Source: Alkaliphilus metalliredigens QYMF
GTDB lineage: Bacteria > Bacillota > Clostridia > Peptostreptococcales > Natronincolaceae
Assembly: GCF_000016985.1 (NCBI RefSeq)
Contig: NC_009633.1
Span: 2,709,539 to 2,773,538 of the forward strand
Reading direction: 5' to 3'
Length of the DNA stretch: 64,000 nucleotides
Shown here: positions 1,416 to 36,831 of the stretch, piece by piece
Numbering within the stretch: position 1 is the stretch's first letter
Layout of the letters: every line of letters begins with the position of its first letter
The notes under the pieces: generated by a model
What the model saw: only the letters and a program-made list of their open reading frames with translations
Told to the model about the DNA's origin: nothing
Database searches by the model: none
Made by a program: the position numbers and the translations under genes

Positions 1416-2147
1416 TTATCCAAGTTTCAATACCCCTTTTAGTCTTACAATTGCCTTAGAATGAAGTTGGGATACTCTTGATTCGGAAACATCCAACACC
1501 TGTCCAATCTCTTTATAGGTAAATCCTTCATAATAATATAAAGTGACCACTGTTTTTTCTCTTTCTGACAAAGACTCAATACTACTTCTTAATAACAAAC
1601 GTTCTTCTTTATTACAAATTATTTGCTCGGGCAGATCATTTTCATCGCCTATAGGTATTTGATTATGATGTGTATCTGATAGTCTTTCTTCTAACGAAAC
1701 AATATTGAAACTGTTTATTTGCTGAAGTGTACGGTGAAAATCACCAATTGACATTTCAAGTTCTTGGGCAACTTCAAAGTCTAATACACTTCTACCTAAG
1801 CGATTTTCTGCCTTAGCATATGCGTCCTCAATTTTTTTTGATTTTTGACGAATAGACCTAGGGACCCAATCTAAGTTTCTTAACTGATCAATAATTGCTC
1901 CTCTGATCCTAATTTGAGCATAGGTTTCAAACTTAACATTCTTGTTAATATCAAATTTCTCAATTGCATCAATGAGCCCAAATATCCCGTAACTAACTAA
2001 GTCATCATAGTCTACATTGCTGCCATAAGAAGTATACAGCCTTCCAGCAATAATTTTCACTAGGGCAATATACTTTTCAATTAATTCATTTTTAGTTTGT
2101 AAATCATGATTTTGCTTATAATGCTGCCATAGGCTTTGATGTTCCAT
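1416..2147 (-). CDS. fliA: RNA polymerase sigma-28 factor for flagellar genes (FliA/SigD/WhiG family)
   Basis: This 243-residue protein has the sigma-70 architecture. Region 2 holds 'DYDDLVSYGIFGLIDAIEKF' and the downstream 'FETYAQIRIRGAIIDQL'; region 3 lies at mid-length; region 4 has a C-terminal helix-turn-helix, 'FTYKEIGQVLDVSESRVSQL'. The length fits FliA/SigD, which directs late flagellar and chemotaxis promoters. The frame is open further upstream to 2252, but that would overlap cheD. The ATG at 2147 has an AGGAGG site right before it, so I place the start there. It is the penultimate gene of the fla/che operon visible here, as sigD is near the end of the Bacillus operon. Confidence 0.95.
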   Translation of the reverse strand: MEHQSLWQHYKQNHDLQTKNELIEKYIALVKIIAGRLYTSYGSNVDYDDLVSYGIFGLIDAIEKFDINKNVKFETYAQIRIRGAIIDQLRNLDWVPRSIRQKSKKIEDAYAKAENRLGRSVLDFEVAQELEMSIGDFHRTLQQINSFNIVSLEERLSDTHHNQIPIGDENDLPEQIICNKEERLLLRSSIESLSEREKTVVTLYYYEGFTYKEIGQVLDVSESRVSQLHSKAIVRLKGVLKLG

Positions 2148-2163
2148 TACTAAACCTCCTGGT

Positions 2164-2652
2164 TTAGATTTCGTGAACTCCGTGTCCGATTGTCTTAATG
2201 CGCAATCTCCCGTCCTCTGAATAAAATTCAATTGTTCGTCCATAATTACCACCTGTATTCTGGGCTATTATCGGAATTTTGAGACGCTCAAGCATATCCT
2301 TTGTGGCGATTATATTTCTTTCACCAATCTTCATCATATCGTTATTGTTCCCGAAGGAAAACATCTGGGACCCACCAGCTATTTTAGCAATGAGTTTACT
2401 TCTACCCGCTCCCCTTGAAATCATTTCCTGTATCAGAAGTTCAATAGCGGTATCTGCAAACTTTGCTTTATTGCTATTATTCCGAATTTGTTCACTACTA
2501 GGCAACATAATATGTGCTAACCCTGCTACCTTCTTTTGCTTATCATAGAGGCAAATTCCCACACAAGATCCTAAGCCAAGTGTCGTTAACATTCCTGGAT
2601 TCTCCACTACCTTTAAGTCGGCCATTCCAACTTTGATTATTATTTTATCCAT
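2164..2652 (-). CDS. cheD: Chemoreceptor glutamine deamidase CheD
   Basis: CheD deamidates glutamines in chemoreceptors and, with CheC, forms an adaptation system. The protein has 162 residues, the usual size. The catalytic signature is clear: 'TLGLGSCVGICLYD' with Cys30, followed by 'LAHIMLP' with His47. The gene directly abuts cheC (one ends at 2653, the other begins at 2652), matching the CheC-CheD partnership seen in Bacillus and Thermotoga. Confidence 0.95.
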   Translation of the reverse strand: MDKIIIKVGMADLKVVENPGMLTTLGLGSCVGICLYDKQKKVAGLAHIMLPSSEQIRNNSNKAKFADTAIELLIQEMISRGAGRSKLIAKIAGGSQMFSFGNNNDMMKIGERNIIATKDMLERLKIPIIAQNTGGNYGRTIEFYSEDGRLRIKTIGHGVHEI

Positions 2653-15589: not shown

Positions 15590-16771
15590 TTAAATTTTCG
15601 ATAATCGCTTAGCTGGTGCTACGATGTCTGTAATTCGAATGCCATAATTTTCATCGATGACAACAACTTCTCCCTTAGCTACATACTGACCATTCACTAA
15701 GATGTCTAAGGGCTCTCCAACCACTTTTTCCAACTCAATAATGGTACCTGGACCAAACTCAAGTACTTCACTTATTTTTTTTACCGTTCTACCTAATTCT
15801 ACAGTCACACTCAGTGGGACATCTTGAATCAGTGCAATATTCTCAGGCAACCCTCTGTTAGATTGTTGGTCAAAGGACTGAAATTGAACAGGTTGTACGT
15901 TTATTTTACTGTTTTCTAAAGATGGTTGTTGTCGTTGTTGAACCGGTGCATCATGATCACTAAGATGAGGTTGTTGATTACTCTTTTCTTGTGTGATACG
16001 GTTTTCTTCACTATTTGCATGAGCTATCGGTTCGGTATGCATTCTTTCGTTAGGTATTTCTTCAGAAGGCATTTCTTCAGTGTATTGTGCTCCTCTTAGT
16101 AATGTGCTAGTGATCTCCTTTGCAAAGTCTAATGGGATTAATTGCATAATCTCACTATCAATTAATTCGCCTATAACCATTCTAAAGGCAATTCTGACAA
16201 AATTTTTGTCTGGACTTTGAAAATGTTCTATAAATTCTGGGGCATTCACATCGCTAGTGAGATCAAGAGTAAAGGCATGGGGCGGACTTATATCAATCTT
16301 TTTACCAAACATTTCAGATAAAGAAGTGGAGGAAGAACCTACCATTTGATTCATGGCTTCACCTATGGCACTTAAATGAAGTTCTGACAAAGGTTCCTCT
16401 GAAGCCACACCTTCTCCACCCATCATTAAATCAGTGATAATTTTCACATCTTTTTCTCTAAGAATGAGTAAATTAACACCCTCTAACCCTTCTTTATATT
16501 TCACATCTACCGCCACAAAAGGCAACGGATATTCTTGTGCAATTTCTTCGAAGGTCAACACACTTACTCGAGGCGTTGTAATTTTTACTTTTTGTCCAAG
16601 TAATGTGGATAATGTTGTGGCAGCAGTTCCCATACTAATATTGCCCACTTCACCAATAACATCCTTTTCATCATCAGTAAATCCTTCATCTATCCCATCA
16701 TTATCTGAGGGTGTATTAGCGTTGCCACTAAGCAACGCATCAATTTCTTCTTGTGAAAGCATATCACTCAT
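15590..16771 (-). CDS. fliY: Flagellar motor switch phosphatase FliY
   Basis: FliY replaces FliN in many Firmicutes: it is a rotor component and a CheY-P phosphatase. The protein has about 393 residues. The N-terminal CheY-P docking motif is 'LSQEEIDALLSG'. CheC-like phosphatase helices follow, e.g. 'IGEVGNISMGTAATTLS' and 'IGEAMNQMVGSS'. A charged, Q-rich linker of about 90 residues precedes a C-terminal SpoA (FliN) domain, 'LSVTVELGRTVKKISEVLEF'. The ATG at 16771 with AAGGGAG upstream is preferred over upstream starts; it overlaps fliM by 8 bases. Confidence 0.95.
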   Translation of the reverse strand: MSDMLSQEEIDALLSGNANTPSDNDGIDEGFTDDEKDVIGEVGNISMGTAATTLSTLLGQKVKITTPRVSVLTFEEIAQEYPLPFVAVDVKYKEGLEGVNLLILREKDVKIITDLMMGGEGVASEEPLSELHLSAIGEAMNQMVGSSSTSLSEMFGKKIDISPPHAFTLDLTSDVNAPEFIEHFQSPDKNFVRIAFRMVIGELIDSEIMQLIPLDFAKEITSTLLRGAQYTEEMPSEEIPNERMHTEPIAHANSEENRITQEKSNQQPHLSDHDAPVQQRQQPSLENSKINVQPVQFQSFDQQSNRGLPENIALIQDVPLSVTVELGRTVKKISEVLEFGPGTIIELEKVVGEPLDILVNGQYVAKGEVVVIDENYGIRITDIVAPAKRLSKI

Positions 16772-17759
16772 ATATCTCATCTCCCTTCTCGTCAATTCCT
16801 GTCACCTTTACAGCCAATTTGTTTTTTGAGGTTCCAGGAAGGCCCCTGTATCTGATTTTGTCTCCCACTAATATCTGTAGCTCTTTGTTAACTGGGTTAT
16901 CTAACATGATGACGTCGCCAATCTGTAATTCTAAAAAATCTTTGACAGTTACGCATGTACCACCTAACTGAGCAGTAATGTTCACCGTGCTTTTTTCCAC
17001 TCTTTTTTGTAATGCTTTTTTATCACTTTCCGTTACTGGTTTACTAATATTTGAAAACCAAAGTTTCGTACTTAATTTATCTAAAATGGGTTCAATCACA
17101 ATATGTGGAATACAGATATTCATCATTCCCTCCACATCCCCAATCTTTAGATTAAGTGTTACTAAAGCAACAGTGTCATTAGGAGACACAATTTGAGCAA
17201 ACTGGGAGTTTGTTTCAATTTTATCTAGTTTAGGCTGTAGTTCAATGACATTTTCCCATGGATCAACCATCAAGTTGATTACTTGCCTCATTAACTTTTT
17301 AATTAAAGTTGTTTCTATTTCTGTAAAAGGACGTACTTCTTCTGTCCCTTTTCCCACTCCCCCAAGAATTCTTTCTATTAAAGTAAAGGAAATACTAGGA
17401 GAGATATCAACTATAATTTGTCCCTCTAAAGGTGTAAAGTTTATAATGGATAACACTGCTGGATTCACAACAGAGTTACTAAATTCATAATAGGAAAGCT
17501 CCTCCACTGTTAATACATCTGCTTGAACGTAGGTTCTTAAATAACCTGCCAGAAACGTATTTAGCATTCTGGAAAAATTATCATGAATGATTTGTAATGT
17601 TCTTAATTGGTCTTTAGCAAGTTTTTTGGGACTTTTAAAATCATAGCTCTTAATTTTTTTCTCTATCTTTTCATCCTTCATTTCTTCAATTTCAACTTCA
17701 CCTGAATTCAGGGCTTGTAATAAATCATCAATTTCATTTTGCGATAATACATCAGACAA
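16764..17759 (-). CDS. fliM: Flagellar motor switch protein FliM
   Basis: FliM is the CheY-P-binding rotor protein of the C-ring. The N-terminal 'LSQNEIDDLLQAL' is the CheY-binding peptide. The middle CheC-like domain lacks the phosphatase residues, and a SpoA domain occupies the last about 75 residues. A GTG at 17768 lies inside the AGGAGG ribosome site. The TTG at 17759, 8 bases after AGGAGG, fits better and gives a protein starting MSDVLSQNEID, about 331 residues. Confidence 0.94.
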   Translation of the reverse strand: MSDVLSQNEIDDLLQALNSGEVEIEEMKDEKIEKKIKSYDFKSPKKLAKDQLRTLQIIHDNFSRMLNTFLAGYLRTYVQADVLTVEELSYYEFSNSVVNPAVLSIINFTPLEGQIIVDISPSISFTLIERILGGVGKGTEEVRPFTEIETTLIKKLMRQVINLMVDPWENVIELQPKLDKIETNSQFAQIVSPNDTVALVTLNLKIGDVEGMMNICIPHIVIEPILDKLSTKLWFSNISKPVTESDKKALQKRVEKSTVNITAQLGGTCVTVKDFLELQIGDVIMLDNPVNKELQILVGDKIRYRGLPGTSKNKLAVKVTGIDEKGDEIYE

Positions 17760-18943: not shown

Positions 18944-18958
18944 TTTTTTTTCGAGCCA

Positions 18959-19747
18959 TTATGCTTCCTCACTTTCCCGACTTTCTTCTTCTTCACTTTG
19001 TCTTAGCTTAGGCGGTAAGAATGCTTTTAGTTTTTCTTCAATAATTCTAGGGTTTTCCCCAGCTTGTATTGAAAGTAAACCTTCTACCATAATTTCTTTT
19101 CTTAAAATTTCTTCTCTACTTCTTAGCTTCAGCTTATTTGCTAAGGGAATAAAAATCAAGTTTGCCATCAATGCCCCATAAAAGGTTGTCAACAGTGCGA
19201 CAGACATGTTGGGTCCTATGGAAGCAGGGTCATCTAAATCTCTTAACAAATTAATAAGTCCAATTAATGTACCCACCATACCAAAGGCGGGAGCCAGCGC
19301 TCCCATCATTTCTAATAGTCCTTGTCCTCCCTGATGTCTTTCTTCAATAAAAGCCAACTCTGTTTCCAATAGATTTCTAACAAGCTCTGGATCTGTTCCA
19401 TCTACAATAAGCATCACGCCTTTTTGCAGAAAATCTTCATTTATTCCTTCTGCAGCTTCCTCCAAGGCCAAAAGTCCCTCCTTACGAGCAACATTTGCTA
19501 ATTCAATAATGCTTTTAATGATGGAGCCAGGATCTACTTTATTATTAGAAAAGGCCTTTGAAACGATTTTAATAGTATCTAATACCTGTTGTAGGGGGTA
19601 TGCTACTAAAGTAGCGGAAAACGTTCCTCCAAAGACAATTAACATAGATGATAATTGTAAGAATCCCGCAATATCTCCATCAGCAGTAATTCCCATAACC
19701 ACAAATCCTAACCCCACAATAATCCCTATAATTGTTGCTATATCCAA
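18959..19747 (-). CDS. motA: Flagellar stator protein MotA
   Basis: MotA is the torque-generating stator subunit that forms the ion channel with MotB. The 262-residue length fits. Four hydrophobic segments are visible: at 4-22, 29-50, and two in 'MMGALAPAFGMVGTLIGLINLL...LTTFYGALMANLIFIPLANKL', which carry the conserved channel prolines. The start is a TTG at 19747 with GAGGTG upstream. Whether H+ or Na+ is used cannot be read safely from the sequence. Confidence 0.95.
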   Translation of the reverse strand: MDIATIIGIIVGLGFVVMGITADGDIAGFLQLSSMLIVFGGTFSATLVAYPLQQVLDTIKIVSKAFSNNKVDPGSIIKSIIELANVARKEGLLALEEAAEGINEDFLQKGVMLIVDGTDPELVRNLLETELAFIEERHQGGQGLLEMMGALAPAFGMVGTLIGLINLLRDLDDPASIGPNMSVALLTTFYGALMANLIFIPLANKLKLRSREEILRKEIMVEGLLSIQAGENPRIIEEKLKAFLPPKLRQSEEEESRESEEA

Positions 19748-30897: not shown

Positions 30898-31308
30898 CTA
30901 CCCTCTCCCTTCATTAATTGCTGTTTTTATTCGTCTAAATTCATTATTAATTTGAGTTGATAAAGTATTGAAAATCACTTGATTTTTTGCCAATTCAGCC
31001 ATTTCCACATCAATATCCACATTATTTCCATCTCTACGTGTCCGGTAGCCTTCGTGACTCCTCACTTTATACTTTACTTCTTCTACCCTTTCAGCACCTA
31101 TTGCAATATGCTTTACATGGGTTCTTTCACCAGAAACGCTATTCCCTTGAAGTGCATTCTTTAAATGTGTTTCAAATTCCACAGTAGATTTTTTGAAATT
31201 TGGTGTATTTGCATTTGCAATATTATTTGAAATGGCCTCATTCCGTACCCACGAAGCACTCATTGCACTATTTAATAAGTTTATATTACTATATAACCCA
31301 TTTGTCAT
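30898..31308 (-). CDS. flgB: Flagellar basal-body rod protein FlgB, first gene of the fla/che operon
   Basis: FlgB is a proximal rod subunit. The 136-residue product has 'EAISNNIANANTPNFKKSTV' and the C-terminal 'LSTQINNEFRRIKTAI'. It is the first gene of the large operon; the start has GGAGGG upstream. About 530 bases without genes lie before it, including the 110-bp tandem repeats described separately. Confidence 0.95.
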   Translation of the reverse strand: MTNGLYSNINLLNSAMSASWVRNEAISNNIANANTPNFKKSTVEFETHLKNALQGNSVSGERTHVKHIAIGAERVEEVKYKVRSHEGYRTRRDGNNVDIDVEMAELAKNQVIFNTLSTQINNEFRRIKTAINEGRG

Positions 31309-31440
31309 TGTATCCCTCCTTAATCAACGAGCTTATTGTGTAGTTATGTACTTATTGCCCTAATTAATCTCTTGTATCAGTATTGTTTGTAGGTCTTACC
31401 CATAGAAGTGAGATTAGATTCCATTTTTCAAAGCATTATA

Positions 31441-31770
31441 CTATATTTGTCATATCCTTGTTTATCCCTGCTTTTTTTTGTATTATTATGTAGAATCAGG
31501 TCTTCAGTACTAGAACCATTTACTATTCTGGTATTTTTTAGCACAAACTATATTATTTGTTATATTTTCAGATATCTCTGCTTTTTTGTGTAGCTTTAAA
31601 GATTTAGGACCCTTACACTAGAATTATATGGATATTTTTCAGATTGTTAATACAACATATATATATTCGCCATGTTTTAGCTTATCCCTGCTTTTTTTCG
31701 GTTTTTTTGTCGAAATAGGACTATATCCCCAGAATTCGTAATCCTGTTATGTCAAACAATCTTTTCCTTC
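31441..31770. repeat. Three imperfect tandem copies of a 110-bp unit upstream of flgB
   Basis: Reading the plus strand in 110-base frames gives copies at 31441-31550, 31551-31660 and 31661-31770. The clearest part is TTATCCCTGCTTTTTT (or ATATCTCTGCTTTTTT), beginning at 31462, 31572 and 31682, exactly 110 bases apart each time. It is preceded by an AT-rich TATATT-type block and followed by a looser AGAAT/TAGGAC region. On the strand of flgB this reads AAAAAAGCAGGGATAA followed 20 to 30 bases later by TATAAT-like runs. A perfect Spo0A-box-like TGTCGAA lies in the third copy (31708-31714). The role is unknown; regulatory or promoter repeats are plausible. The bases 31309-31440 show nothing else. 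Confidence 0.7.
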
Positions 31771-31842: not shown

Positions 31843-33045
31843 TTAGATCAAGGATTCCGATGATTGAGTTAAAGGTAATTTTATAGTAAATTTAGCACCT
31901 TGCCATTGGCTATCCTCTGCTATTATTTCTCCATTGTATTTATTAGTAATAATATCATAAGCTACGGCTAGTCCAAGTCCCGTTCCTACTCCTATTTCTT
32001 TTGTGGTAAAAAAAGGCTCAAATACCTTGCATTTTGCCTCATCACAAAGTCCTCTTCCATTATCTTCTATTTCACAAATTAAGTAGCCCTCGTCTTGATA
32101 CGTTGCTATTTGCAAACTATTATAAACAGCTTTTTTCTGTTCAGAAAAAAGTGCTGTCTTTTTATTGATTTCATAAATGGCATTTTTAAGTATGTTCATA
32201 ATAACTTGACTAATTTCTATCCTATTACATAAGATAGAAGGCAGGTCTTTTGAAAAATTCAATTCCACCTTATCGAAAATTTTCATATCACAATTCAAAG
32301 TATTAAATACATATTCTATGGTTTCATTAATGTCTATTTTATTTACTCCTATAGCTTGTGAAAAAGGGTTACTTTGACTGTATTGTCTCATTTCTTCTTG
32401 TTGAATACTTCGTAATTCAAACGAATCTAAGTTCTTCTCTCTACTACTAAGCTCTTTATTCATATATTGAAGTTGTTTTTCTTGTTTCAGTTTCTCAAAA
32501 ATTTCTGAAAAAATTTCTGAAATTAATTTTAATAAAAACTGAGATTCAATACTCCATTTTTTATTTTGAAAAGTATTGTCAATACCAATATAGCCTATTA
32601 AATGGTCTTTGTGAAAAATAGGTAATGTAATAAGAGATTTTATTCCTTGCTCTAAGAGGATTTCTTTTTCTACTTCTGCTTCTTCTGGCATTTCTTCCAC
32701 ATCTTCAATCACAATCATTTCATTGGCCTTTAATTTTTCCATCCACCAAAGACATAGCTCCGTTCTTAAATTTTGAAGGTTGTGTTTTTCAGCACTAACA
32801 CCTTTCTCGCACCATTCATAAGCGTTATCCATATATTCTAAATCATTTCTAAACAAGAAAACATACACTCGAGAAGCATCAGTCCTCCTTCCGATTTCTC
32901 CTAGACATTCTTCTATAAGATATTCCTTCTCTACAGTAATACCATTTAGTTTTGTTGTAAATTTTGAAAGCACTTCAAAAAACGCCTTTGAACCTTCACT
33001 ACACTCTTTCTTAATTCGCTTTTGAAGCTGGATATTTTTTTTCAT
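31843..33045 (-). CDS. GAF-domain histidine kinase-like protein lacking the H-box histidine
   Basis: The protein has about 400 residues. A GAF-like domain fills residues about 30 to 185. A coiled coil follows, then a dimerisation-like segment and a HATPase domain with 'NILKNAIYEIN' (N box), 'DNGRGL' (G1) and 'GVGTGLGLAVAYDII' (G2). In relatives the segment before the ATPase reads '...HEINNPL'; here it is 'QEEMRQYSQSNPFSQAIG', with Tyr (about residue 222) where His is expected. It may thus be a pseudokinase or use another residue. The start at 33045 follows AAGGAGG. It lies downstream of the split chemoreceptor gene and probably belonged to the same transcript. Confidence 0.85.
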   Translation of the reverse strand: MKKNIQLQKRIKKECSEGSKAFFEVLSKFTTKLNGITVEKEYLIEECLGEIGRRTDASRVYVFLFRNDLEYMDNAYEWCEKGVSAEKHNLQNLRTELCLWWMEKLKANEMIVIEDVEEMPEEAEVEKEILLEQGIKSLITLPIFHKDHLIGYIGIDNTFQNKKWSIESQFLLKLISEIFSEIFEKLKQEKQLQYMNKELSSREKNLDSFELRSIQQEEMRQYSQSNPFSQAIGVNKIDINETIEYVFNTLNCDMKIFDKVELNFSKDLPSILCNRIEISQVIMNILKNAIYEINKKTALFSEQKKAVYNSLQIATYQDEGYLICEIEDNGRGLCDEAKCKVFEPFFTTKEIGVGTGLGLAVAYDIITNKYNGEIIAEDSQWQGAKFTIKLPLTQSSESLI

Positions 33046-33118
33046 AGTTATGTCCTCCTTCATAATATGTAATTTTGAGTTACTTATAATTAGAATTTTT
33101 TTACATAAAGCATCTTTC

Positions 33119-34438
33119 TTATATTTTAAATCGGGAAATAAATTGCTGTAGTTTTTCCGCTATTTTTGCCAGCTCTTCACTCCCATTGGCGATTTCATCT
33201 ATTGATACTGTTTGTTCTTCCATAGAAGCAGAAGTTTCCTCTGTTCCTGCTGCATTTTCCTCTGCTACTGCTGATAAGTTTCCCATTAAATCCAATAATT
33301 TATCTTTGGTTATATTGATTTTATCTGCCGATGAATTCAGTTGTGCTATGCTATTTTTTGTGCTTCCAATGGAGAATGCAATCACTTCAAATTTTTGTTC
33401 TGTATCTTTTACGCTTTTAGTTTGAGCAGCTATAATTCCTCTTACTTCATTCATTCCACTTACTGCACCTTGAGATTTAGATTTCAACTCTTCAATCACC
33501 TGTTTTATTTCCTTTGTAAAATCATGGGATTGTTCTGCGAGCCTTCTAATTTCCTCTGCTACAACCGCAAAACCCCTTCCAGCCTCTCCTGCTCTCGCTG
33601 CTTCTATTGCTGCATTTAATGCCAATAAATTTGTTTGATCGGATATGCTTTGAATCATGGTACTTGCCTGATCTATTTTTTCTGCATTTTTATCATTACT
33701 TAATATAATGTCATATATTGTTTTAGAAGATATATTGCTTTGGTTTGTTTTTTCTACTAATTCCTTTAATAAGATAAATCCTTCGTCTTTTTGATTGTCT
33801 ATTTCTTCTAGAGATGAATTTAGTTCTTTTATATGCTTTTTATTTTCCTCGATTACTCTCCCCATATCCTCCGTATGTCCAGCAGCGGCTTCCGTATCAC
33901 CAGCTTGCTCTGCGATTCCTTTAGCAATTTCTTCTATTGTTTTAGCTACTTCTTCAGAAGCTGTTGCTGTATATTGGGAGGTAGCAGTAAATTCTTCTGA
34001 TAAGGCAGCTACTTGATTTGTGCTTTCTGCTGTCTTTCCTATAAAACTTCTAACATTATCTGCCATAATATTTAAGGCATTTGCAATCCTACCGATTTCA
34101 TCTTTTCTATCCCTATATTTTAATATAGCAGTACCTTGTTGGACACTAAAATCTAGATTAGCTTGTTTATCTATAGCGGATGTTAAGGCTATAATGGGTT
34201 TTACGATACTGCCACTGATAAAATAAGTTATCATCATACCGATTACAATTGCAGCTAACGAAAGGATAATTAGAAGGTTTCTTAAATTATGTGCTTTCTT
34301 TAAAACTTCCTTTGCTTCCATCCCTAATACCCCAACCCAAGGACTCCCTTCAATAGGTGCAAAGGCTACGATCATTTCCATTCCTTCATAGGTGTAGCTC
34401 CCACTACCTATTTCTCCTTTCAGCATTTGATTTTCTAT
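33119..34438 (-). pseudogene. Methyl-accepting chemotaxis protein, C-terminal part, cut off by IS insertion
   Basis: This part encodes the end of a dCACHE sensor domain ('[21 protein letters not shown]'), membrane helix 2, a HAMP domain and the whole signalling domain. The signalling domain has the hairpin tip '[28 protein letters not shown]'-type sequence. An open frame runs on into the IS to 34549, but those residues are IS-derived and no proper start is seen. The N-terminal part lies at 36125-36831. Removing the IS and one target copy joins the two in frame into a 670-residue receptor. In the present state a transmembrane receptor cannot be made, so the gene is probably inactive. Confidence 0.9.
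34425..34438. repeat. Left 14-bp target site duplication of the IS
   Basis: ATTTGATTTTCTAT here is repeated exactly at 36125-36138, directly flanking the mobile element. Both copies encode I-E-N-Q of the interrupted receptor. Perfect identity suggests a recent insertion. Confidence 0.9.
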
Positions 34439-34460
34439 AGGCGTTTGCCAAACGCCGCAA

Positions 34461-34484
34461 CCCGCACTATTGCGGGACTTTTTT
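34461..34484 (+). terminator. Rho-independent terminator at the left IS end
   Basis: CCCGC (34461-34465) and GCGGG (34472-34476) form a GC stem with a 6-base loop, followed by ACTTTTTT on the plus strand. It lies upstream of the transposase and would stop outside transcription from entering the gene, a common protective feature of insertion sequences. Confidence 0.75.
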
Positions 34485-34496
34485 AAGCATAAAAAA

Positions 34497-34570
34497 ATAT
34501 AACTCCTCACCAGATTGTGGTAAAATTGAATTGACAGAAACAAATTCACCCAACCTGAAAGGAGTTATAT
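34497..34570 (+). promoter_or_regulatory. Inverted repeat sequestering the transposase ribosome-binding site
   Basis: ATATAACTCCT (34497-34507) is the exact reverse complement of AGGAGTTATAT (34560-34570). The latter contains the AGGAG ribosome site and ends right at the ATG (34571). The 52-base loop includes a smaller ACCA/TGGT stem. A transcript starting upstream would hide the ribosome site, whereas one starting inside the loop would not. This is a likely brake on transposition; the function is inferred from the pairing. Confidence 0.65.
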
Positions 34571-36031
34571 ATGGCTATTTTACCACACAAACAGCTTTCT
34601 TTGGCTGAAATTTATTCCGATTGTGCCAATTATTTTGAAAATGATAAGCATCACTTTCTTTCTCTTTTAAAAGAAAACCTTAATCTTGATGAGTTAATCC
34701 CTCTTTCTTTTCATCGTAATTACTATGCATCTACTGGCAGACCTAGAAAACATCATCTTACATCAATGGTTTGGGCTTTGCTTCTGCAGCGGATTTTCTC
34801 CATTCCAAACGATACATTGTTGCTGACTTTTCTTCAGTTTTCTAAGGAACTTAGAAATTTTTGTGGTTTCACCAATGTTCCTGATGCTTCTAGATTTACT
34901 AGATTCAAACAAGATTTTCTGCCAGACTTACAATCATTTTTTGAATATCTTGTGGATGTCACTGAACCTATTTGCCAGGCTATTGATCCTCATAAGGCTT
35001 CTATGACTATCTTTGATACTTCTGGCATTGAAGCTTTTGTTACTGAAAACAATCCTAAATACGCTAATAAAATTATTAAACAACTTAAAGCTTTTAAAAA
35101 GACTCATAACCTTGATGATTCCTATGATCCATATAAAGCAGCCTATGGTTCCATGCCTTCTCATGCAGCTGCTAATCCAGAGATCAAGCAACTTTACATC
35201 AATGGTCATTTTTGTTATGTCTATAAATTTGGGATGATCACCAATGGTCTTGGTATTATTCGTGATATTACTTTTTATGACCAAGATTTTATGAATGCTC
35301 ATCCTAACATCGTTGTTGACAAAAAGTCGGATTCTCCTGATGAGGATAAGTCCCTTGGTGATGCAAAAGCTCTTTTACCAGTGTTATCTGACTTTTTTAA
35401 TAAACATCCACTCATTCAACCTAATATCTTTATCGGAGATGCTGCTTTTGATACCATTTCTATCTACAAAGGAATTTTTTCGGATTTAAAGTTCAATAAA
35501 GCTTATATTCCCTTAAATCCTCGTTCTTCCCTTAGCAGCTCTGAATACACTCTTACTGAAGATGGGATTCCCTGTTGTCCTCATGATCCAAAACTACCTA
35601 TGAAGCCTGAAGGCAATACTTCTCATCTTCGCTGTGGTATTCCTACTTTCAAGTTTGTCTGTCCGAAAATGTCTTGGACTAAATGTGAAGACGGCAAGTA
35701 CCGACGCCGGCATAATTGCGATAATCCCTGTACTTCATCACCTTGTGGTAGAATGATTTATGTGTATCCTGAAAAAGACTTACGGGCATATCCAGGCGCC
35801 ATTCGTGGTACCGATGATTGGGATAAAACCTATAAAGCCCGAGGTGTCGTTGAGCAAACCATTAACCATTTCAAAGATAGCTTTTGTATTGCTAACCGAA
35901 GAACACAGAATGCTAAAACATTGCATGCCGACCTGATTATTGCTGGTATAACGCAGCTTGTTACAGTTATCCTTGCTGACAAAATACATCAACACAAATA
36001 TATCAGAAGTTTAAAACCACTTATTGCATAG
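34571..36031 (+). CDS. DDE transposase of the IS1182-like element
   Basis: The intact 486-residue transposase has an N-terminal DUF772-like part ('YYASTGRPRKHHLTSMVWAL', later 'DASRFTRFKQDF'). The catalytic core follows, with candidate acidic residues in 'IFDTSGIEA', 'FIGDAAFDTISIY' and 'RGVVEQTINHFKDSF'. A cysteine-rich insertion ('CCPHDPKLPM', 'CGIPTFKFVCPKMSWTKC') lies between the last two. The frame has no disruption, so the element may still be active. The start is fixed by the AGGAG site at 34560-34564. Confidence 0.9.
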   Translation: MAILPHKQLSLAEIYSDCANYFENDKHHFLSLLKENLNLDELIPLSFHRNYYASTGRPRKHHLTSMVWALLLQRIFSIPNDTLLLTFLQFSKELRNFCGFTNVPDASRFTRFKQDFLPDLQSFFEYLVDVTEPICQAIDPHKASMTIFDTSGIEAFVTENNPKYANKIIKQLKAFKKTHNLDDSYDPYKAAYGSMPSHAAANPEIKQLYINGHFCYVYKFGMITNGLGIIRDITFYDQDFMNAHPNIVVDKKSDSPDEDKSLGDAKALLPVLSDFFNKHPLIQPNIFIGDAAFDTISIYKGIFSDLKFNKAYIPLNPRSSLSSSEYTLTEDGIPCCPHDPKLPMKPEGNTSHLRCGIPTFKFVCPKMSWTKCEDGKYRRRHNCDNPCTSSPCGRMIYVYPEKDLRAYPGAIRGTDDWDKTYKARGVVEQTINHFKDSFCIANRRTQNAKTLHADLIIAGITQLVTVILADKIHQHKYIRSLKPLIA

Positions 36032-36124
36032 TTAACCGGTACGCCTTGTCTCTTTAGAAAATTTAATCAGCACTCAATTTTCTGCCCTTCTAATTACTTT
36101 TCAAATTTAGTTTCGCAATTACCT

Positions 36125-36138
36125 ATTTGATTTTCTAT
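36125..36138. repeat. Right 14-bp target site duplication of the IS
   Basis: Exact second copy of ATTTGATTTTCTAT (see 34425-34438), adjoining the right IS end AATTACCT. Confidence 0.9.
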
Positions 36139-36831
36139 TAAACTGGCTAGTTCTTTGAAACTTTCATCTTCTTTTGCGTTTTCTAGCATATTGTCCTGCT
36201 TTAAAACAAGTTCTAAATCTTTATCTGCTACGATTGTTCCCTCGTTGTTAATGACATAAGCATAGCCAGTTTCTCCATAGTTTATATCATTGACAATATC
36301 ACTTAAGAAAGTACCTTCCCTTCTACCGTAAAACACCCCTATTATCTCACCCTGCACGATAACCGGTGCTGCATAAATTATTACCATTTCTCCTGTAGCT
36401 CTACTGATCAGTATATCGGATGCAGCAGGTTGTCCATTAAACGCAGCTGTAAAATAAGCTCTATCTCCAATATTGGTAGTTTCTTTTGCACTATTAAAAA
36501 CACTGCTATTTCCTCTTTTATCTGCAAATGCAAAGGCAGCATAGCCTGTTCTTTTGGCTTCTTTTTCAAAAAAAGCTATTTTTTCCTGAAAGGAGATTTC
36601 TTCCTCTGTTATCATTGGATGTTGTGCTAAAGCATCTATATAATTTAACTCTTGATCTCTTCTTGAAGCAATGTATCGACTTTCTACTTCTATTAAGTTT
36701 TTTAAATTTTCATGTGCATCCTCTATTGAGTTATTACTAACCAAATTGATAGATACCCACGATAGTCCATTGACTAAAATGAAAATTAATAGGGTAAACA
36801 CAATGATCAATCTACTTTTCAATGATTTCAA
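36125..36831 (-). pseudogene. Methyl-accepting chemotaxis protein, N-terminal part, cut off by IS insertion
   Basis: This part encodes the receptor start: membrane helix 1 (residues about 7 to 28) and most of an extracytoplasmic dCACHE-type ligand domain, including 'DRAYFTAAFNGQPAASDILI' and 'YGETGYAYVINNEGTIVADK'. The frame continues 10 codons into the IS and stops at 36094. The fragment lacks membrane helix 2 and all signalling parts. Its ATG at 36831 overlaps the end of cheV by 4 bases (ATGA), so receptor and CheV were translationally coupled. Confidence 0.9.

Follow-up and report, generated by a model that had tools for sequence, protein, structure and literature searches.

Sigma-H is known as a transition-phase and sporulation sigma factor, spo0A is one of its known targets, and the promoters of the spoIIA type are sigma-H promoters that are activated by Spo0A and carry 0A boxes upstream. 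As far as the accessible parts of PMC3865298 and PMC7438776 go, the promoter in front of flgB is used by SigA in Clostridioides difficile and in Bacillus subtilis, in the latter also weakly by SigD. In C. difficile SigH is reported to modulate motility negatively (accessible text of PMC3865298), and the two observations in this organism argue against sigma-H control of flagella as a general rule. A literature search, most subscription papers being outside its reach, recognised no sigma-H promoter at flgB; the available text of PMC3720852 concerns only flagellin promoters of Roseburia and Eubacterium, and that of PMC5171806 mentions no flagellar genes.

The stretch of Alkaliphilus metalliredigens DNA analysed here (the window, 64,000 nucleotides) contains a large flagellar operon on the minus strand. 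Its first gene, flgB (30898..31308, minus strand), was recognised by NCBIfam TIGR01396 FlgB with 106.7 bits (cut-off 59.05), and the last ORF of the co-directional run, a FliA/WhiG-family sigma factor (sigma-28; 1416..2252, minus strand), by TIGR02479 with 264.9 bits (cut-off 189.6). The initial annotation spoke of a 36-gene operon, which comes close to the count in a greedy ORF list: 34 co-directional ORFs, each 60 amino acids or longer, from flgB to fliA. Family search put names to FlgB, FlgC, FliF, FliJ and the sigma factor only; the other gene names are assumed from position. Upstream of flgB, a gap of 534 nt, in which the modules described below are located, extends to a histidine-kinase-like gene (31843-33063, minus strand) with HATPase and GAF domains. 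Beyond this gene an IS1182-type transposase ORF (34571-36031, plus strand; 58.4 bits, where the family cut-off is 270) separates the signalling part of an MCP (33119-34549, minus strand) from a Cache-domain ORF (36094-36831, minus strand), an arrangement (33119-36831) that gives the impression of a chemoreceptor gene interrupted by an insertion.

Three blocks repeated with an exact period of 110 bp had been noticed in this gap, and a repeat search confirmed the positions of the blocks: a 46-nt core is found at 31442-31487, 31552-31597 and 31662-31707, with spacings of 110 and 110, and the other two copies are 70% and 76% identical to the first. The three-copy statistic of this core was best at offset 110, with 96 of 138 pairwise matches. 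None of 1000 dinucleotide-preserving shuffles of the flgB intergenic region (533 nt) reached this value (mean 66.7, sd 2.9, maximum 81), so that the refuting outcome named in the initial annotation, likeness no higher than in shuffled AT-rich sequence, did not occur, and the runner-up place in the 64-kb window, scanned in 533-nt stretches with a step of 100 nt, reached 87. The exact period holds for the 46-nt core and fails for the whole unit: Tandem Repeats Finder, with a minimum score of 30, reported no 110-bp array in the flgB upstream region, and ungapped identity between the copies falls as low as 0.20-0.33 beginning 16 nt upstream of the GCAGGG core, identity being restricted to blocks. 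Gapped alignment revealed a second block of likeness, TTCTAG...RGWCCT, approximately 30 nt upstream of the core, so that the module measures about 80 nt and the figure of exactly 110 is true for the core alone. What recurs three times, read on the flgB strand, is a module of about 80 nt rather than a complete unit of 110 bp.

The sigma-H consensus, as given in the accessible text of PMC8510167, consists of a -35 element RNAGGAWWW and a -10 element RNNGAATWW, and the repeat core fits a promoter of this type, RnAGGAwWW-N11-RnnGAATww. The module distal to flgB, c3 (31655..31734, minus strand, as are all elements of this paragraph), comprises an RGWCCY box, a 0A-like box, an A-tract and sigma-H-like -35 and -10 elements. 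Its -35-like GCAGGGATA (31683..31691) agrees with seven of the eight specified positions of the consensus and its -10-like GGCGAATAT (31663..31671), after a spacer of 11, with all seven. The box AGTCCT (31717..31722) is located 31 nt before the -35, and next to it stands TTCGACA (31708..31714), a putative Spo0A box that reads TGTCGAA, exactly the consensus, on the opposite strand. The core of the middle module, c2 (31544..31623), is decayed: in its -35-like GCAGAGATA (31573..31581; 6/8) the AGGA is broken, the -10-like AACAAATAA (31553..31561) scores 6/7 at a spacer of 11, and the box GGTCCT (31606..31611) precedes the -35 by 30 nt. The proximal module, c1 (31434..31515), which lies about 163 nt ahead of the start codon, has again GCAGGGATA as -35-like element (31463..31471; seven of eight specified positions), followed after 11 nt by the -10-like GACAAATAT (31443..31451; 6/7), with the box AGACCT (31498..31503) 32 nt before the -35. 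An upstream-ORF reading was rejected; ATG-like triplets that resemble the start of flgB are seen in c1 and c3 and, by eye, are not kept in c2 and the fourth copy described next.

The A. metalliredigens genome (4.93 Mb, one contig) contains a second, reduced flagellar operon at approximately 644-651 kb. Intact open reading frames for FliF, FliG, FliL, FliM, FliN, a CheY-like protein and FlhA are present there (L047:8146-15408, approximately 644.1-651.4 kb), mainly rotor and switch parts. DNA identity to the window is 99.6% in fliF-fliG, 89.9% in fliL-fliM, 81.3% in fliN-cheY and 98.0% in flhA, a mosaic from which it would seem that fliFG and flhA have undergone gene conversion recently. The second operon also holds a scrap similar to window positions 18947-19129 (89%), and the counterpart of the 401-aa ORF that follows fliM in the window (15590-16795) is a 151-aa ORF with a FliMN_C domain alone (L047:12348-12803), apparently the product of an internal deletion that fused two homologous stretches. 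Upstream of the second operon the sequence aligns to the upstream region in the window (71% over 128 nt, E 6e-11) and includes one copy of the module, dA, with a -35 that matches RNAGGAWWW in 8/8 and a -10 that matches RNNGAATWW in 6/7 positions. The spacer is 11 in all four copies (c1, c2, c3 and dA), and the conserved G of the -10 is replaced by A or T in c1, c2 and dA.

A sequence-only profile (R1) was made from these four copies. Searching the whole genome with R1 returned the four at E <= 2.1e-16 (71.1 bits for c3, 69.5 for c1 and 65.0 for c2, training sequences all); since they are the training set, only the absence of further copies is informative, and there was nothing else with E < 0.01 in the whole genome, the next match having E 0.0148. 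A match at flgB itself (31287-31350, 8.5 bits, E 0.43) falls in the Shine-Dalgarno region and was taken as chance. A DNA search with the whole intergenic region gave four matches below 0.001, namely itself, the second operon (L046) and the outside loci L044 and L045. The initial annotation had proposed to search the genome for the unit and for its core; the unit, as a profile, proved confined to the four copies, and the core decamer alone was discarded as a regulon marker, because GCAGGGATA-type sites with one mismatch lie mostly in coding sequence in the rest of the genome.

Sigma-H-type sites were scored with a SigH matrix that is independent of flgB. It was built on Table 3 of PMC7438776, which lists 40 C. 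difficile SigH promoters; 38 of them were used, two low-score starred rows being left out, and the boxes were placed by best fit to the published consensus. The training sites score 6.6-22.7, and among these 38 sites the spacer is 11 in 16 and 12 in 20. Ranked over both strands of the 64-kb window, c3 (17.7) comes 4th, c1 (11.1) 60th and c2 (3.4) 1199th; dA scores 13.4. As sigma-H-type promoters, the copies are best read as a good distal c3, a weak proximal c1 and a decayed middle c2. The genome has a sigH gene (TIGR02859, 377 bits, cut-off 294.8) and a spo0A gene, and in front of the latter GAAGGAAAA-N11-GTCGAATCA (SigH-matrix score 18.6) shows the same layout as at flgB.

The unequal quality of the copies could also mean that an old tandem duplication, produced by slippage or recombination, is now neutral, with only the copy nearest flgB, or none, at work. 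The broken -35 of c2, the weak -10 of c1 and the modest likeness of the copies (70-76%) would agree with such a history. However, the promoter and box blocks are alike while most other sequence has diverged to background, it is the distal copy that matches a promoter best, and two relatives have two good sites each before flgB (21.1 and 17.0 in L020, 18.0 and 17.8 in L037), so that tandem promoters at flgB are not peculiar to A. metalliredigens; we regard a merely neutral array as quite improbable. As to origin, the -35 GCAGGGATA is common to the organism's own tandem copies and differs from GAAGGA of the relatives and GGAGGA of dA, which makes tandem duplication within the A. metalliredigens lineage the simplest explanation.

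Comparison with 28 flgB loci of relatives supports the view that the module belongs to flgB. With R1, aligned upstream matches on the same strand were obtained in seven: L027 (34.6 bits, E 3e-9), L019 (25.0 bits, E 3e-6), L025 (15.9 bits, E 0.002), L016 (13.9 bits, E 0.009), L014 (12.7 bits, E 0.02), L031 (12.4 bits, E 0.03) and L028 (11.1 bits, E 0.07). At the other 21 of the 28 loci R1 found nothing comparable, apart from a few weak partial matches (e.g. L020, 8.2 bits). The core read from the relatives' upstream sequences, AAGGAWTTT-N11-GTCGAATAA, equals the sigma-H consensus. In L014 the best-scoring site (10.8) differs from the module site (8.6), which was chosen by eye. Among the relatives of the order that have sigH over the cut-off, all four f4 and both f6 genomes are without a flgB site; in the f4 genomes (L017, L018, L029 and L030) AGTCCY/GGTCCC-like boxes seem, by eye, to be kept upstream of flgB in the absence of a sigma-H site.

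The SigH matrix was applied to the 430-nt upstreams of 28 flgB genes (27 relatives and A. metalliredigens, out of 30 loci; L035, which lacks an upstream, and L032 were left out). The mean score was 14.2 on the sense and 7.0 on the antisense strand, sense was the higher in 26/28, and shuffle p was <= 0.05 in 17/28. The mean difference between sense and antisense was 9.8 with the true matrix against 4.0 with scrambled matrices, hence this contrast, taken alone, is partly a matter of composition. Intergenic gaps were scored in addition: 14 of 17 flgB gaps of the family reached a score of 14 (mean 16.2), compared with 19 of 163 control gaps (mean 6.6; Fisher 1.5e-9, Mann-Whitney 7e-9, values that are too small, the genomes being related). 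The controls were taken from 20 stretches of 20 kb (16 from family relatives, four from the own genome) with the last 30 nt excluded, and when only those with at least 200 nt are counted, 11/88 reach 14. L032 (13.4) and L036 (10.1, with 186 nt upstream only), which were first left out of the flgB set, bring its fraction to 14/19. None of 300 column-scrambled matrices, whose maximum was 12.0, attained the mean of 16.2 given by the true matrix. When any spacer from 4 to 23 was allowed, a score of 12.5 was reached by 12 of the 17 genomes at 11, by five at 12 and by 0-2 elsewhere, and the mean best score was 13.4 at spacer 11, 9.8 at 12 and 5.9-8.2 at the others. The spo0A upstreams of the same relatives, used as positive control, scored at least 14 in 20/22 cases, typically with GAAGGAATA-N11-GTCGAATAA. 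Upstreams of rpsB gave 10/29 at this level (mean 12.6), and five of these ten sites fall between -33 and -35, where the Shine-Dalgarno region is; as the rpsB upstreams included Shine-Dalgarno and coding sequence, they are a poor control and were supplemented by the intergenic gaps.

Two kinds of boxes accompany the sigma-H-type sites. A sequence [AG]G[AT]CC[CT] within 60 nt before the -35 was found in 10 of 16 family relatives, in eight of them at 30-32 nt (L015 at 41, L025 at 37), and each of the four own copies has it 30-32 nt away; it was seen in none of 20 spo0A sigma-H sites and in 1.7% of shuffled 60-mers. RGWCCY is a candidate activator site at a fixed distance. TGTAGAA occurs at 21-22 nt in 6/16 family relatives and in both f7 genomes (raw counts), and GTTGAAA at 20 nt in two more genomes; the own copies have TTCTACA (c1), TTCGACA (c3) and ATCTACA (dA) at 23-24 nt, and c2 has none. 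This element of the module is possibly a Spo0A-like box. The conserved G of the -10 is replaced by A, T or C in 9/16 family relatives, as it is in three of the own copies, and is kept in 20/20 spo0A sites. For this tally the site position was set by hand in L014, L034 and L037, and the spo0A upstreams L175 and L176, which have no sigma-H site, were dropped. A coupling of the RGWCCY box to a non-canonical -10, hinted at when genomes are counted (p 0.035) and absent when genera are (p 0.24), is not claimed.

Boxes at fixed positions could also be expected if the core were the binding site of a flagellar regulator, a response regulator or some other, and the real promoter a sigma-A-type one nearby, either TTAACA-N16-TATAAT, which lies between c3 and c2 (31623..31650, minus strand; 11/12, perhaps by chance), or TAAACA-N18-TATAAT. 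Both of these sites have a perfect TATAAT, the RGWCCY box seems to outlast the sigma-H site in the f4 genomes, and flgB depends on SigA in C. difficile, according to the literature as far as it was available. Against this, sigma-70-like sites are as frequent in shuffles: single sigma-A-like sites of 10-11/12 exist in the region, yet for TTGACA-N17-TATAAT six were found compared with 4.6 (sd 2.2) in shuffles, and no excess over chance was seen. Moreover, AGGA...GAAT with a spacer of 11-12 nt is the signature of sigma-H and occurs in the spo0A promoters of the same genomes as well. We therefore consider a regulator site beside a sigma-A promoter unlikely. The TATAAT that had been pointed out by the copy nearest flgB does exist, but outside the repeat. 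As the core, GCAGGGATA-N11-GGCGAATAT, is sigma-H-like and TATAAT is neither part of the repeat nor enriched, the promoter type implied by the initial annotation is probably wrong; its broader suggestion of repeated promoters or flagellar regulator sites finds computational support in the upstream, same-strand occurrence in related genera and in the promoter geometry.

The GGA-like core within GCAGGGAUA, reminiscent of the CsrA consensus, raised the thought of a repeated RNA element in the flgB 5'-leader, such as CsrA/GGA sites or a structured RNA. However, no Rfam family was found at gathering score, and none of three sub-threshold matches falls on the repeats on the flgB strand. The leader folds like its shuffles (z -0.05), and single copies range from z -1.40 to 1.28 on the flgB strand. 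The leader-RNA reading was rejected on these grounds and appears highly improbable.

The survey was extended to at least 80 named flgB loci, of which 78 had enough upstream sequence and two were dropped as short. Among the listed loci, shuffle p was <= 0.05 in 25/78 (50 shuffles each; about four expected), and 18 scored at least 16: Lutispora, a Pelotomaculum MAG, Carboxydocella, a Thermoanaerobacter MAG, four Paenibacillus, Gordonibacillus, Alicyclobacillus, three Selenomonas/Selenomonadaceae, Anaerovibrio, a Massilibacillus MAG and three unclassified Clostridiales/Clostridiaceae/Bacillota MAGs. None of the 13 listed loci titled as non-Firmicute reached 14 (highest 10.0), and many listed Firmicutes had no flgB site, including most of those titled Lachnospiraceae or Butyrivibrio, where L085 (15.7) and L102 (14.3) attained their scores solely at spacers 13 and 10. 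In 40 genomes hand-picked from the listed 80, sigH exceeded the TIGR02859 cut-off in 17 of 19 genomes with a flgB site compared with 9 of 21 without (p 0.003); the two genomes that have a flgB site but gave no sigH match at E <= 1e-40 are a Paenibacillus and the Massilibacillus MAG. Seven of nine Lachnospiraceae-type genomes have a divergent SigH (196-229 bits, cut-off 294.8) and two have none. Genomes with a divergent SigH (L093, L079, L082, L094, L107, L127 and L128) are without a flgB sigma-H site. We propose, tentatively and with somewhat more doubt than conviction, that sigma-H may act directly on the flagellar master operon over a wide range of Firmicutes (the own family and relatives of Paenibacillus, Alicyclobacillus, Thermoanaerobacter, Lutispora, Carboxydocella and Selenomonas), that the SigA control reported for B. 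subtilis and C. difficile may be a derived state, and that here the module, dedicated activator boxes included, was triplicated and also copied to the second, rotor/switch operon.

For the locus itself we think it likely, judging from the sequence comparisons, that each repeat is a copy of the family's flgB (fla/che) promoter module, of sigma-H type and probably activator-assisted, which was triplicated in A. metalliredigens. From the same comparisons we infer use by sigma-H, the identity of the activator and the function of each copy, as follows. The promoter would consist of an AGGA-type -35, an 11-nt spacer and a GNCGAAT-type -10, aided by the A-tract just upstream of the -35 as a probable UP element; the RGWCCY box and the TGTAGAA/0A-like box, approximately 20-32 nt upstream of the -35, would probably bind an activator, perhaps Spo0A at the 0A-like boxes. 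When sigma-H activity rises in stationary phase or at entry into sporulation, sigma-H polymerase would start the flagellar operon at c3 and more weakly at c1, and sigma-28, encoded at the end of the operon, would then drive the late genes. Tandem duplication of the module would have left c3 near consensus, c1, which lies at the usual distance, with a weaker -10, and c2, having lost its -35, as an extra activator site or dead. Such a layout suggests that the building of flagella in A. metalliredigens is tied to sporulation and the stationary-phase programme. If this is true, one sigma factor would link the decision on flagella to that on sporulation in numerous lineages of clostridia and other Firmicutes, in contrast to the SigA-driven model systems; organisms lacking known flagellar master control would gain a testable promoter, and one genome would offer three graded copies of the same promoter for comparison.

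Among described systems, the modules are closest to the sigma-H (Spo0H/SigH) promoters of Bacillus and Clostridioides, such as those of spo0A and spoIIA, which they resemble in the -35, the spacer of 11-12 and the A/T context and, fully in c3 and in 6/7 positions in the other copies, in the -10. They differ from these in preceding a flagellar operon, in being triplicated, in having RGWCCY and TGTAGAA boxes upstream, and in that many members have an A or T where the -10 has its conserved G. With the spoIIA-type promoters they would share TGTAGAA/TTCGACA about 21-24 nt before the -35 and paired boxes approximately 10 bp apart, but an exact 0A box is present in c3 only and most copies deviate from it (TGTAGAA), and Spo0A binding here is putative. 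With the fla/che (flgB) promoters of B. subtilis and C. difficile they have in common the position before the first gene of a large flagellar operon, whereas those promoters, in the accessible parts of the reports, are assigned to SigA, unlike the sigma-H type of the module.
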